Shown: piece by piece, positions 16,880 through 27,581 of the stretch
Position numbering within the stretch: the stretch's first letter is position 1
Layout of the letters: every line of letters starts with the position of its first letter
From: a bacterium
Lineage (GTDB): Bacteria > Vulcanimicrobiota > Vulcanimicrobiia > Vulcanimicrobiales > Vulcanimicrobiaceae
NCBI GenBank assembly: GCA_028869385.1
Contig: JAGWSR010000024.1
Coordinates: 1 to 38,837, forward strand
Reading direction: 5' to 3'
Length of the DNA: 38,837 nucleotides
Position numbers and translations under genes: made by a program
Notes under the pieces: model-generated
Told to the model about the DNA's origin: nothing
Databases searched by the model: none
Seen by the model: the letters and a program-made list of their open reading frames with translations, nothing else

Positions 16880-16899
16880 AATTTAGGTTAGCCTAAATT
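16880..16899 (+). promoter_or_regulatory. DtxR/IdeR/MntR-type operator before the beta-barrel gene
   Basis: The palindrome has 8-bp arms AATTTAGG (16880-16887) and CCTAAATT (16892-16899) around TTAG. Its core, TTAGGTTAGCCTAA (16883-16896), matches the first 14 positions of the DtxR/IdeR consensus TTAGGTTAGCCTAACCTAA. It ends six bases before the ATG, where a bound repressor would block transcription or initiation. A core identical at 13 of 14 positions precedes the Nramp gene. Confidence 0.82.
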
Positions 16900-16905
16900 A
16901 AGGCA

Positions 16906-17775
16906 ATGATCCACGTTCTCGTTTTCGCGGCGACGCTCGCTGCTGTCTCGCCAACACCCGCACCCGCGGCGCCGCCGTCGTCGGCACCCATGGCATCGCC
17001 GGCGCCCGCGGACGATCCGTGCGATGGTCCGGGCCGATTGCTCGCCACGCTCGATCGTCCCACGGTGGGATTCAGCCCGTGCGCGGTTGCTCCGGGCATG
17101 CTCCTCCTCGAAGAGGGCTACCAGTCGCAAATCAACGGCACCAACGAGAGCGGCGCGTCATATCTCGATCAGTATCCGCAGAGCATCATCCGTTATGGCC
17201 TCGCGCAGCGCTTCGAATTTGACCTGATCGGCCCGAACTACGTGCGCGCGGCGGCTCCCGACGGTAAGGGCGGGCTCGCGCGCACGCAGGGATACTCCGA
17301 CGGCGGCCTCGGCATCAAGGTCGAGTTCGCGCCGCGCGGCCGGACCACGGTCGCTGTGGACGGGCTCTACACGGCCCCCAACGGGTCGCCCGGCTTCACC
17401 GCCGGCGGTGCGACCGAGACGCTGAACCTCGACGCCGGCTACGCGCTCAGCGACACGGTTGGGATCGGAACCACGCTCGCGCTGCAATCCACGAGTGGGT
17501 TCGACGCGGCGGGCAATCGGGCGCGCTACGGCGTTTTTCTGCCCTCGGTTGTCGTGACCAAGCAGTTGCCGCGCGCGACGCAGCTCTACGGCGAGTACGT
17601 CTATGCCTCGAAGCTCGCGCCCGACCAGAGCGGCCGAGCCTTCGTCGACGGCGGCGTGCAGAAGCTGCTCGGGAGCCGTTTTGAGCTCGATGTCGAGCTC
17701 GGCCAGTCGCTCATCGGCGACCCCTCCAAGCGCTTCCACTACCTCGGCCTCGGCTTCGGCGTTCGACTTCGATAG
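16906..17775 (+). CDS. outer-membrane beta-barrel protein (transporter, PF13557-like)
   Basis: This 289-residue protein has a signal peptide (MIHVLVFAATLAAVSPTPAPA) and a Pro/Ala/Ser linker. A barrel-like region of alternating polar and hydrophobic strands joined by Gly/Asp/Asn turns begins near residue 60. Repeated patterns such as F-E-F-D-L-I-G and L-Y-G-E-Y-V-Y, and the end Y-L-G-L-G-F-G-V-R-L-R, resemble the 'MetA-pathway of phenol degradation' transporter family. Substrate is not deducible from that family. The DtxR-type operator immediately upstream points to metal-controlled expression and perhaps metal passage across the outer membrane (inference). Two cysteines (in DDPCDG and FSPCAV) precede the barrel. 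Confidence 0.75.
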   Translation: MIHVLVFAATLAAVSPTPAPAAPPSSAPMASPAPADDPCDGPGRLLATLDRPTVGFSPCAVAPGMLLLEEGYQSQINGTNESGASYLDQYPQSIIRYGLAQRFEFDLIGPNYVRAAAPDGKGGLARTQGYSDGGLGIKVEFAPRGRTTVAVDGLYTAPNGSPGFTAGGATETLNLDAGYALSDTVGIGTTLALQSTSGFDAAGNRARYGVFLPSVVVTKQLPRATQLYGEYVYASKLAPDQSGRAFVDGGVQKLLGSRFELDVELGQSLIGDPSKRFHYLGLGFGVRLR

Positions 17776-24782: not shown

Positions 24783-25739
24783 CTAACGGCCTTCTGATTT
24801 GGCTCCCCACAGGACGCTTGCTACCGACCACAATCCGGCGACGACCGCGATCAAGATGATGAAGAAGAGGCCGAGCTCGAGCAGGACCACGCCCGCGAAC
24901 TGGCTGCCGCCGCAGAGCGCGACGACACTCGCGATGAGCGAGAGCTTGAAGCGCTCAATGGGGTTGCTCGCCATCCCCGCGACGGAACGCGCCTCGGCGA
25001 TCACGCCCTGCGGATCCCATCCGGCCGTCTCGATGACGTAGGCCACGCGCCCGGTGGGTTCGACGATGAAGAGCTTGTCGTTGTGGATGAAGTCGGCGTC
25101 GTTGACCTGCAGCGAGTTGATGCCGAACTCGTCGAGCACGCGTTGGATCGTGGTGCCCGTCCCGGTGAGCAGCGTCCACACGCGCGGATCTTGCTCGTAC
25201 TGCGCACCGTAGGCGCGCAGCACGGCGGGCGAATCGTACGGCGGATCGAGCGTGATTTCGAGGATTGCGAAGTGCTTCGGGTCGAGCGCGCGCTGCACTT
25301 GCGTGAACTTGCTCGATATCGCGGGGCAGACGTCTTTGTCGGGGCATCGCGTGAACGCAAAGCTCAACAGGACCGTTTTGCCGCGGTAGGCGCGCCCGAG
25401 ATCGACGATCGCGCCGTCCTGCGTCACGAGTTGCGCGCTCGGGAGCGGCTTGCCGACATCGACCGATTCGACGCGCCCTTGCTGAGGCAGTCCGGGCGTA
25501 AACGGCGCGGCGGGGATCGCTTCGTGCAGCGTCCACGGTGTCGTGGAGCGATCGAGCAGTCCATCGACGCCGGTACCGGGTTTGAACGGGGCGCTGCCTT
25601 CGAGGCGCATGCGGTACGCGCCGGCCGGGAGCATGTTGGTGATCGGGTTGGCGCGGACGATCGCCGCGCCGCCGGCGACCGGCGAGACGAAGACGCCGTG
25701 GAACGGCGCGACGAGCGCGGCGAGGACGAGCGCGATCAA
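24783..25739 (-). CDS. SCO1/SenC-like protein with a CX5C metal motif
   Basis: This 318-residue thioredoxin-fold protein has an N-terminal signal-like helix, about 80 residues of leader domain and a SCO domain. A C-terminal membrane helix (about 280-305, F-A-G-V-V-L-L-E-L-G-L-F-F-I) follows. SCO proteins deliver copper to the CuA site of cytochrome oxidase or act as thiol reductants, using a CxxxC pair plus a distant histidine. Here the pair is C132 and C138 (C-P-D-K-D-V-C), so two residues have been added, while H219 is kept in D-F-I-H-N-D. The ATG overlaps the stop of the upstream SCO gene. No oxidase subunit gene is in the window. Confidence 0.85.
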   Translation of the reverse strand: MIALVLAALVAPFHGVFVSPVAGGAAIVRANPITNMLPAGAYRMRLEGSAPFKPGTGVDGLLDRSTTPWTLHEAIPAAPFTPGLPQQGRVESVDVGKPLPSAQLVTQDGAIVDLGRAYRGKTVLLSFAFTRCPDKDVCPAISSKFTQVQRALDPKHFAILEITLDPPYDSPAVLRAYGAQYEQDPRVWTLLTGTGTTIQRVLDEFGINSLQVNDADFIHNDKLFIVEPTGRVAYVIETAGWDPQGVIAEARSVAGMASNPIERFKLSLIASVVALCGGSQFAGVVLLELGLFFIILIAVVAGLWSVASVLWGAKSEGR

Positions 25740-26317
25740 CGCATCACCGAGCGCACGTTGGCCGCAATCTCGGCTACGCGTTCGTCGTCGTTGTGCACGG
25801 CGCGCTCGCGGCCGTTGCGGTCGATGATGTAGAACGCCGCCGTGTGCATGAAATCGTAGCCGTTACCAGCATGCTCGGCGGCGCTCTTGCGTGCGTAGAT
25901 GTGATAATCGCGCAGCACGCCGTCGATCTGCGCCTGCGACCCCGTGAGGCCCACCATCGGCGCCCCGGGGAAGCGCTGTAGGAATCGCGCGAGTTGCCGC
26001 GGGTGGTCGCGCTGCGGGTCGATGGTGACGAAGACGATCTCCGCATCCTTCGCGCTCGCGTGCGCTTGGCGCAGCGCCTGCGCGAGTTTGGCCGCAGTTG
26101 CCGGGCACGTATCGCCGCAGTGCGTGTAGCCGAAGAAGAGCGCGAGCGTCTTGCCGCGCTGCGCGGCGAGGTTCCAGGCCGCTCCCGTGCTGTCGGTCAA
26201 GGTGAAATCGGGCGCGGGCGTCGCGAGCGAACTCTGCGTGCTCGTGGTGGGGGCGTGCGAGCACCCCGCGGCGAGAAGCAGCGCGGCGACGACGGCGAGG
26301 TGGCGCATGCGGGACAT
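25736..26317 (-). CDS. SCO1/SenC/PrrC-family lipoprotein
   Basis: This 193-residue lipoprotein has lipobox L-A-A-G-C with C19. The SCO domain is canonical: C67 and C71 in T-H-C-G-D-T-C-P, and H158 in D-F-M-H-T. AGGA lies six bases before the ATG at 26317, favouring that start over the Met three residues later. Copper delivery to cytochrome oxidase or thiol redox work in the periplasm is expected from the family. It forms an overlapping pair with the atypical SCO gene downstream, ahead of the ECF sigma module. Confidence 0.93.
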   Translation of the reverse strand: MSRMRHLAVVAALLLAAGCSHAPTTSTQSSLATPAPDFTLTDSTGAAWNLAAQRGKTLALFFGYTHCGDTCPATAAKLAQALRQAHASAKDAEIVFVTIDPQRDHPRQLARFLQRFPGAPMVGLTGSQAQIDGVLRDYHIYARKSAAEHAGNGYDFMHTAAFYIIDRNGRERAVHNDDERVAEIAANVRSVMR

Positions 26318-26342: not shown

Positions 26343-27581
26343 TCATGACCCGGGGTGGAGAATCGTCGTAATCGCCATCCAGACCCCGAGCGCGACGATG
26401 ACGCCGGAGAGGGAGAAAGCGATCGCGTTGCCGAGCGCTCGGTTGCGCCGTTCGCCGATGACGCGCGGGTCGTTCACGAGCACGAGCAAGAAGCCGAGCA
26501 CGACCGGCAGCACGAAGCCGTTGAACGCTTCCACATTGACCGTGATCTGCACCAGCGGCAGGTGCGGAATGAGCACGATGCCCGCCGCGAGCGCGACGCA
26601 GGCGGCATAGAGTCCGGTGAAGCGTTTGGCCCGGAGGCCGTCGTTGAGCGAGCAGCGCCAGCCGAAGGCTTCGCCGAACGCCCACGCCGTCGCGAGCGAG
26701 ACGACAAAGGCGCCGAGCAGCGACGCGCCGATCAACGCCACCCCGAAGGTCACCCCGGCCAGATGCCCCACGAGCGGCTCGAGGGCGATCGCGGCTTGCG
26801 CCGCATCGACGACGGGAATGTGGCGCGCGTGCAGCGTGGCGGCCGTGGTGATGATGACCGCGCACATGATCGCCTGGGTGACGACCGCGCCGAGGGCGGT
26901 ATCGAGCCGCGCGAAGGGCAGGTCGCCGAGCGTGAGGCCTTTATCTACCGTGGCGCTCTGCTGGTAAAAGATCATCCACGGCATGATGACCGCTCCGATG
27001 TTGGAGGCGATCAGGAGCAGGTAGACGCCGTCGTGCAGCGGCTGGTTGCCAAAGAGACCCTGCGCGACGACTTGGTGCGTCGGCGGATGCGCGGCGAAGG
27101 CGGCGGGGATGAAGAGCAGCTCGAGGAGGCAGAGGCCGAGGGCGAAGGTCTCGGCGCGCTTGTACGAAGCGGTAAGGATGACGACGACGAGGAGCAGCGC
27201 GGCCCCGACGACGAGCGGAACCGGGTCGAGCCCGAAGATCAGCGCCGCCCCGGCGATTCCGGCGAATTCGGTGACGAGCGCCGCGACGTTGGTGACGAGC
27301 ATCGTTCCGAGCGAGACCCACGTCCAGCCGAGCCCGTAGTGCTCGCGAATCAGGCGTGCGTGGCCTTTGCCCGTCACCACGCCGAGGCGAACCGTCATCT
27401 CCTGCACGACGAAGAGCGGCACGATGAGCAGCAATTGCAGCAGGATCAGCTTGTAGCCGAATTGGGCGCCCGAGGTGGCGGCCGTCGTGATACTGCCGGC
27501 CTCGGTATCCGCGAATGCAACCACCAGCCCGGGGCCGACCACGGCGAGAAAACGCACGAGACGAGAGCGGAGCGCGAGCAT
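26343..27581 (-). CDS. Nramp-family divalent metal transporter, divergent in the first helix
   Basis: This 412-residue inner-membrane protein has about eleven hydrophobic helices and the SLC11 fold. The usual D-P-G-N motif of helix 1 is replaced by D25-T-E-A, although G-P-G before it and G-A-Q-F-G-Y after it are kept. Helix 6 keeps A197-V-I-M200-P, holding the metal-coordinating Met and Ala of known Nramps, followed by W-M-I-F-Y-Q-Q rather than H-N-L. The ion may therefore differ from the usual Mn2+/Fe2+; relatives transporting Mg2+ are known to have altered sites. A DtxR-type operator sits seven bases upstream of the ATG, which favours a transition metal. Probably monocistronic. Confidence 0.9.
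   Translation of the reverse strand: MLALRSRLVRFLAVVGPGLVVAFADTEAGSITTAATSGAQFGYKLILLQLLLIVPLFVVQEMTVRLGVVTGKGHARLIREHYGLGWTWVSLGTMLVTNVAALVTEFAGIAGAALIFGLDPVPLVVGAALLLVVVILTASYKRAETFALGLCLLELLFIPAAFAAHPPTHQVVAQGLFGNQPLHDGVYLLLIASNIGAVIMPWMIFYQQSATVDKGLTLGDLPFARLDTALGAVVTQAIMCAVIITTAATLHARHIPVVDAAQAAIALEPLVGHLAGVTFGVALIGASLLGAFVVSLATAWAFGEAFGWRCSLNDGLRAKRFTGLYAACVALAAGIVLIPHLPLVQITVNVEAFNGFVLPVVLGFLLVLVNDPRVIGERRNRALGNAIAFSLSGVIVALGVWMAITTILHPGS

Follow-up and report, generated by a model that had tools for sequence, protein, structure and literature searches.

The transporter gene in the window (the whole 38,837-nucleotide stretch of DNA analysed here) encodes a member of an Nramp-superfamily clade that lies inside the NRMT-like branch and carries a metal site of its own, with D/E-x-x-S on helix 1 and A-x-x-M on helix 6. 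Judged from sequence comparison, the protein is probably an uncoupled importer with the LeuT fold, carrying Fe2+ and/or Mn2+, which arose within this branch and had its site rebuilt for transition metals. We also lean, a little less firmly, towards a broader reading, in which selectivity for Fe2+/Mn2+ would have evolved a second time inside a Mg2+-transporting branch: the helix-6 Ala and Met would have returned convergently, a Ser on TM1 and a Glu on TM10 would be new, transport would proceed uncoupled from protons, and the helix-1 Asp would have changed to Glu in Eremiobacterota. The superfamily, its fold and a Mn-carrying NrmT (2014, PMC4072509) are already known. Literature searches, one for Asp-to-Glu mutants included, found among the papers listed no description of the clade, its site or its regulation, and the clade may be one of the uncharacterised Nramp-related groups mentioned in Ray et al. 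2026 (PMC12873925). Placing NRMT site residues in a transition-metal Nramp reportedly gave no Mg2+ transport (PMC8806188), and evolution appears to have done the reverse swap in many bacteria; the clade offers a natural experiment on what determines metal choice and on whether proton coupling is required. The features discussed below are collected in Table 1.

Table 1. Features of the window (positions count from its first nucleotide)
Feature	Positions	Strand	Basis or remark
Nramp-superfamily (PF01566) transporter, NRMT-like branch, D/E-xx-S + A-xx-M clade	26343..27581	(-)	Pfam, structures, tree
DtxR-type operator TTAGGCTATCCTAA	27588..27601	(-)	Ends 6 bases ahead of the transporter ATG
D25 codon; taken for the DPGN Asp by the initial annotation; feature of the whole NRMT-like branch	27507..27509	(-)	Alignment
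E27 codon; aligned with the DPGN Asp on helix 1 (EleNRMT D55, DraNramp D56)	27501..27503	(-)	Alignments
S30 codon; place of the DPGN Asn (Gly in NRMT)	27492..27494	(-)	Alignment
E105 codon; conserved TM3 Glu	27267..27269	(-)	Glu in 89/89 clade sequences
A197 codon; helix-6 Ala (NRMT-like: Thr or Asn)	26991..26993	(-)	Site table
M200 codon; helix-6 Met (NRMT-like: Ala/Ser/Thr)	26982..26984	(-)	Site table
E351 codon; place of the TM10 Gln (EleNRMT Q379, DraNramp Q378)	26529..26531	(-)	Site table
SCO1/SenC protein, possible operon partner	25736..26317	(-)	Pfam; 25 bases downstream of the transporter, same strand
Second SCO1/SenC-like protein	24783..25739	(-)	Pfam; 4-base overlap with the first
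The other of the genome's two exact DtxR-type operators	16883..16896	(+)	Pattern scan
Secreted barrel-like protein behind the second operator	16906..17775	(+)	Pfam search, no match

Transporter fold and metal-site residues

The initial annotation had read the open reading frame as an Nramp transporter, and this was borne out. Its product of 412 amino acids is a genuine member of the superfamily, matching PF01566 (Nramp) with an E value of 5.9e-77 and 259.6 bits against a gathering cut-off of 29.8. The source is a soil bacterium with an Eremiobacterota-like genome of 3.08 Mb in 152 contigs, and the named relatives of the protein, among those listed, come from Candidatus Eremiobacterota MAGs (81 to 89% identity). 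Three PF01566 members are encoded in this genome; since the other two have D-x-x-G sites, the assembly lacks a canonical MntH. The query fell below the NCBIfam cut-offs for canonical Slc11/MntH (120.6, 64.4, and 39.9 bits versus 430, 272.5, and 50). By sequence, its closest solved structure in a phmmer search was EleNRMT, the Mg2+ transporter of Eggerthella lenta (E value, 3.8e-66), followed by BfraNramp (4e-19). An AlphaFold model (59 sequences; mean pLDDT, 91.3) had the Nramp LeuT fold, with predicted breaks at T26-E27 in helix 1 and at I199-M200 in helix 6; residue numbers in the model run one lower than the protein numbering. Ranking the model by fold placed EleNRMT first (7qji, Z 51.3; 7qia, Z 51.2; 35% identity), ahead of DraNramp (48.5) and BfraNramp (44.8).

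Residue statistics were drawn from a scan of genome contigs that yielded 514 relatives, of which 80 were used. These, together with PF01566 members from relatives, 16 carrier genomes, a Bacilli sample, and E. coli MntH, made up an alignment of 155 sequences. It comprised 89 sequences with [D/E]-x-x-[S/C] plus A-x-x-M-P-W (46 Glu and 43 Asp), 28 D-x-x-G types, 31 canonical sequences, and 7 others, a group into which incomplete rows were placed. The 89 unique sequences of the clade belong to Eremiobacterota, acidophiles, Clostridia, Alicyclobacillus, and Actinobacteria. Among 60 relative genomes, 24 carried a clade member, including 20 of the 37 from the same family (66 to 100% identity) and all 4 from the sister family (48 to 51%).

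The register of helix 1 had to be corrected. The initial annotation had equated D25-T-E-A with the canonical D-P-G-N, a pairing that is off by two and was ruled out by alignment to E. coli MntH, in which YIDPGNF pairs with DTEAGSI of the query, and to EleNRMT, in which the counterpart is GNDAGG. It is E27-A28-G29-S30 that stands at the place of D-P-G-N, and for these residues the claim of a half-rewritten metal site holds. Helix 6 reads A197-V-I-M200-P followed by W-M-I-F-Y-Q-Q, as had been described. In the numbering of the phmmer alignment, E27, S30, A197, M200, and E351 correspond to D55, G58, T224, A227, and Q379 of EleNRMT; the available text of PMC8806188 numbers D55, G58, T224, and Q379, not A227, as site residues.

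Position 27 was Glu throughout the E subclade (46/46) and Asp in the other subclade (43/43), the D-x-x-G types (28/28), and the canonical sequences (31/31); with Glu fixed in all 46, neither error nor chance accounts for the substitution. PMC8806188 states that the helix-1 Asp is universal; the Eremiobacterota members of the clade have Glu in its stead. At position 25, Asp was found in 85/89 clade sequences and in 25/28 D-x-x-G types, with Tyr or Phe in the canonical group. Position 30 held Ser in 85 of the 89 (Cys in 4 Alicyclobacillus sequences), Gly in 28/28 D-x-x-G types, and Asn in 31/31 canonical sequences. A change overlooked by the initial annotation is that of the TM10 Gln: position 351 was Glu in 82/89 clade sequences (the exceptions being six Met and one Gln), and Gln in 27/28 D-x-x-G types and all 31 canonical ones. 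In DraNramp, Q378 is reported to form with T130 and D56 a water network that closes the outer gate (PMC10185341), and the position aligned to Q378 suggests that this network is also rewritten in the clade. Trp replaces the helix-6 His in every clade sequence (W202, 89/89), and position 102 was invariably Leu (89/89; Asp in 25/31 canonical sequences). Other residues specific to the clade were A101 (86/89), V198 (89/89), and M239 (89/89).

Position of the clade in the Nramp tree

The initial annotation had considered the NRMT branch relevant, and the tree placed the query inside the NRMT-like branch, which it shares with EleNRMT; in every tree the query fell outside the canonical clade. In the tree of 90 rows, obtained by thinning the 155 at 78% identity, support was 100/99 for each of the canonical group (26 rows), the NRMT-like branch (60 rows), and, within the latter, the clade of the query (36 rows). 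The position of the root rests on the G-motif rows. The E subclade is defined by its Glu, yet it was also gathered by the tree, except for row L073.

Within the NRMT-like branch, helix 6 otherwise reads T/N-x-x-A/S/T, and the position of the query inside this branch therefore indicates that A..M was regained. The initial annotation was right that A-x-x-M-P is present, but its description of the motif as retained did not survive the tree. Inheritance of A-x-x-M from an ancestor common with the canonical Nramps was rejected in an AU test, in which joining the clade and the canonical sequences into one group, with groups named by motif, was 78 log units worse (p-AU, 5.1e-7). A quick tree from which the TM1, TM3, TM6, and TM10 site stretches had been removed, and two long-branch rows excluded, recovered the same groups, with SH-aLRT values of 94 for the clade, 97 for the canonical group, and 99 for the NRMT-like branch. 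A197 and M200 were the only positions common to just the clade and the canonical group, no other in 8-404 passing the same thresholds, a count that is partly circular because those same letters served to define the groups.

Further site variants occur in the NRMT-like branch, namely, E-N-D-x-P-S with A-x-x-T (L157 and L194) and D-x-x-G with N-x-x-A (L186, L187, L195, and L197).

Operators and riboswitches

A DtxR-type operator before the transporter gene, pointing to Mn or Fe, had been proposed in the initial annotation, and the site was confirmed. Exact TTAGGNTANCCTAA sites number only two in the 3.08-Mb genome, both inside the window, against 0.02 expected from window shuffles, and the pattern was found in 13 of 60 relative genomes, its own included. 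The DtxR consensus is given as TTAGGTTAG(G/C)CTAACCTAA, and the site of C. glutamicum cg3404 starts with the same 14-mer (PMC1382209). Since only 6 bases separate the operator from the annotated ATG, translation may in fact begin a little further downstream, or the ribosome site may be overlapped by the operator; in most relatives this distance is larger. The only DtxR-family protein of the genome is closer to IdeR/DtxR (1e-31) than to B. subtilis MntR (7e-11). In the alignment it has Glu at the place of DtxR Met10 (presumably the number of that residue), which makes the metal of the regulator unsure.

Regions of about 220 bases upstream of the genes were then scanned, with two short stretches set aside. 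Predicted DtxR boxes with at most one mismatch preceded 26 of 43 E-type genes and 7 of 43 D-type genes, the latter including Alicyclobacillus and Actinobacteria, compared with 0/27 D-x-x-G and 2/29 canonical genes; shuffled means were at most 0.05. The two canonical carriers are MntH genes of the Bacilli sample with a similar box, TTAGGTTGACCTAA. Fur boxes of the 7-1-7 type, scored at up to two mismatches from TGATAATNATTATCA, which we took to be the consensus, were predicted for 15/43 D-type genes (shuffled mean, 0.46; maximum, 2), 1/43 E-type genes, 0/27 D-x-x-G genes, and 1/29 canonical genes. The D-type genes concerned belong to Clostridia and acidophilic MAGs, with an exact box in Clostridium folliculivorans (L105), and the single canonical match is the positive control, E. 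coli mntH, a gene repressed by Fur according to the title of a reference. Either box was present at 48/86 clade genes, 0/27 D-x-x-G genes (Fisher, 3e-8, on related rows), and 3/29 canonical genes; after thinning below 78% identity, the counts were 16/34, 0/21 (1e-4), and 1/24. Neither box was found, at the thresholds used, for 38 of the 86 clade genes.

A Fur-family gene stood near the transporter in 6 of the 80 loci used from the 514 relatives, with Pfam checked for one. These loci (L080, L085, L086, L089, L092, and L094) belong to acidophile-type MAGs, and five of the six also have a barrel protein lying behind, a BBP2 porin in the one checked. In the query's own genome, on contig C151, a gene for a ZnuA-type binding protein directly follows a Fur-family gene, an arrangement suggestive of a zinc system.

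The M-box Mg2+ riboswitch was detected at 6 of 20 chosen NRMT-like loci (L031, L035, L149, L150, L162, and L184) and at none of the 41 clade loci scanned (14, 14, and 13; of the 80 used); none lies in the window. Two of these M-boxes (L031, 2848-3027; L035, 705-873) precede NRMT-type paralogs from the phylum to which the window belongs. In the Alicyclobacillus genomes G064, G065, and G066, a DtxR-type box on the clade gene (L106, L107, and L108) occurs beside an M-box on an NRMT-type gene (L184, L150, and L149). No riboswitch governing a clade gene was found in the 41 loci, the nearest, a NiCo riboswitch, being more than 4 kb downstream in L105. Cobalamin riboswitches lie on the strand opposite the clade gene in L086, L089, and L094; in L086 (at 1705-2969), the riboswitch is followed closely, in the same orientation, by the gene of a NicO-family transporter, not far from the Fur-Nramp cluster. 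A sigma-70 promoter scan found no promoter, and terminator-like sites were no commoner than in shuffles.

Substrate, mechanism and gene neighbourhood

In the mechanism we propose, helix 1 would contribute S30 and E27, the latter an Asp in the sister subclade, to the rebuilt metal site, helix 6 would supply the carbonyl of A197 and, as a soft ligand, the thioether of M200, and TM3 E105 and TM10 E351 may line the site or the outer gate. The DtxR-family repressor, of which the genome has one, would probably switch the gene off when metal is plentiful. Transport is probably not proton-coupled, as in EleNRMT; uncoupled carriage is expected because the helix-6 His is replaced by Trp and the TM3 proton-path Asp by Leu.

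Mutants of characterised proteins bear on the substrate. EcoDMT M235A is reported to let Ca2+ through (PMC8806188), which suggests that the helix-6 Met serves as a selectivity filter, and T224A alone abolishes detectable Mg2+ transport by EleNRMT (PMC8806188). M200, the Ala at the place of T224, and the operators combined make it much more likely that the substrate is a transition metal than anything else. The mixed hints on the substrate seen by the initial annotation have mostly dissolved: the helix-6 Met, the iron-type operators, and the lack of Mg2+ riboswitches at the clade loci scanned point to Fe2+/Mn2+, not to Mg2+ or Al3+. The canonical Slc11/Nramp proteins (E. coli MntH, DraNramp, ScaDMT, and clade B BfraNramp) share with the query A-x-x-M, the LeuT fold, the TM3 Glu, and a probable transition-metal substrate. 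They differ from it in having DPGN in place of EAGS, and hence the helix-1 D-x-x-N that the query lacks, MPH versus MPW, Gln versus Glu on TM10, and a separate branch; the query has neither the helix-6b His nor the polar proton path.

Between the two metals, Fe2+ is slightly favoured over Mn2+, on account of two unrelated iron-type regulators, the Fur-family genes nearby, the IdeR-like regulator, and the lack of FeoB. FeoB_C is absent from the genome itself, and FeoB was found in 4 of 60 relatives and in none of the 24 clade carriers; the transporter is a candidate for the main route of Fe2+/Mn2+ uptake in a group mostly without FeoB in our sample. However, most of the class lacks FeoB, carriers and non-carriers alike, which weighs against the argument for iron, and a Fur box is not proof of iron, because Fur also represses the E. 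coli Mn importer gene mntH. With similar boxes on MntH genes besides, Mn2+ is a possible substrate.

A stricter version of the latter, a Mn2+-selective importer under MntR-like control that substitutes for MntH and does not import iron, is the alternative that fares best, and we consider it rather unlikely. The missing canonical MntH and the TTAGGTTGACCTAA boxes of the two Bacilli genes speak for it, as does the NrmT of Acidobacterium capsulatum (Shin et al. 2014), which by its description belongs to the NrmT branch, has no M-box, and rescued a Mn-uptake mutant (PMC4072509); that gene, unlike the query, adjoins an MgtE fragment. Such a role sits poorly with the Fur boxes and nearby Fur-family genes of the D subclade and with a regulator closer to IdeR/DtxR, and an extra Mn importer would be redundant in the Clostridium and Alicyclobacillus carriers, which also have a canonical MntH. 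B. subtilis MntG (YcsG), of the "G-motif 3" group, is likewise Nramp-related and a reported Mn2+ importer under MntR. It was compared through the integrative model 9a52_A only (16% identity; Z, 41.7), and Ray et al. 2026 (PMC12873925) assign it to a different group.

That the protein is a Mg2+ transporter of the usual NRMT kind, the changes at its site being cosmetic, is very unlikely. EleNRMT (PDB 7qia/7qji) is indeed its closest structure and lies in the same branch, at 35% identity and Z 51, with a Trp for the helix-6 His and a TM3 Glu. However, the D-x-x-G and T-x-x-A/T motifs of the NRMT site, as defined in PMC8806188, are both substituted in the query: EleNRMT has DxxG, TxxA, and a TM10 Gln, and the query has ExxS, AxxM, and a TM10 Glu, with Ala at the very place where T224A is disabling. 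Regulation differs as well, with Mg2+ riboswitches at some NRMT-type loci, DtxR or Fur boxes at clade loci, and no M-box in any of the 41 scanned.

Copper, or another soft metal, transported in connection with cytochrome oxidase assembly, is suggested by the neighbouring genes. The SCO1 family occurs near the transporter in 25 of the 80 loci (of 514 relatives), with SCO1 neighbours in Eremiobacterota, and P-type ATPases bearing CPC and MxxSS, motifs that we take to be of the copper type, lie close to it in 4 of the 80 (L103, L109, L113, and L115). These SCO1 and CopA-like ATPase neighbours fall outside an Fe2+/Mn2+ reading and count against it. Even so, operators of the DtxR and Fur types, a site rich in carboxylates, and copper-related neighbours that vary between lineages render a copper transporter highly improbable. 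Least credible of all is a transporter of trivalent ions (Fe3+/Al3+), with the extra acid E351 stabilising the third charge as in plant NRAT, for although E351 is present in 82/89 clade sequences and several carriers are named as acidophiles, free import of either ion would be toxic and no trivalent-metal regulator is implied. NRAT did gain a negative charge near its site, but it has Thr for the Met that the query keeps (PMC10115441), and its DPSN plus AxxT contrasts with EAGS plus AVIM.

The second operator of the window precedes the gene for the barrel-like protein, which, from its sequence, could possibly be an outer-membrane metal channel or partner. This operator is exact in its own genome only, has two mismatches at L207 and at least four in the other 18 of the 20 loci compared, and the gene is kept as a lead only because of this poor conservation at its relatives. 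In L217 (G019:C51:73255-75394), the gene for a homolog of the barrel-like protein and an NRMT-type Nramp gene lie on opposite strands, with about 50 bases between them.
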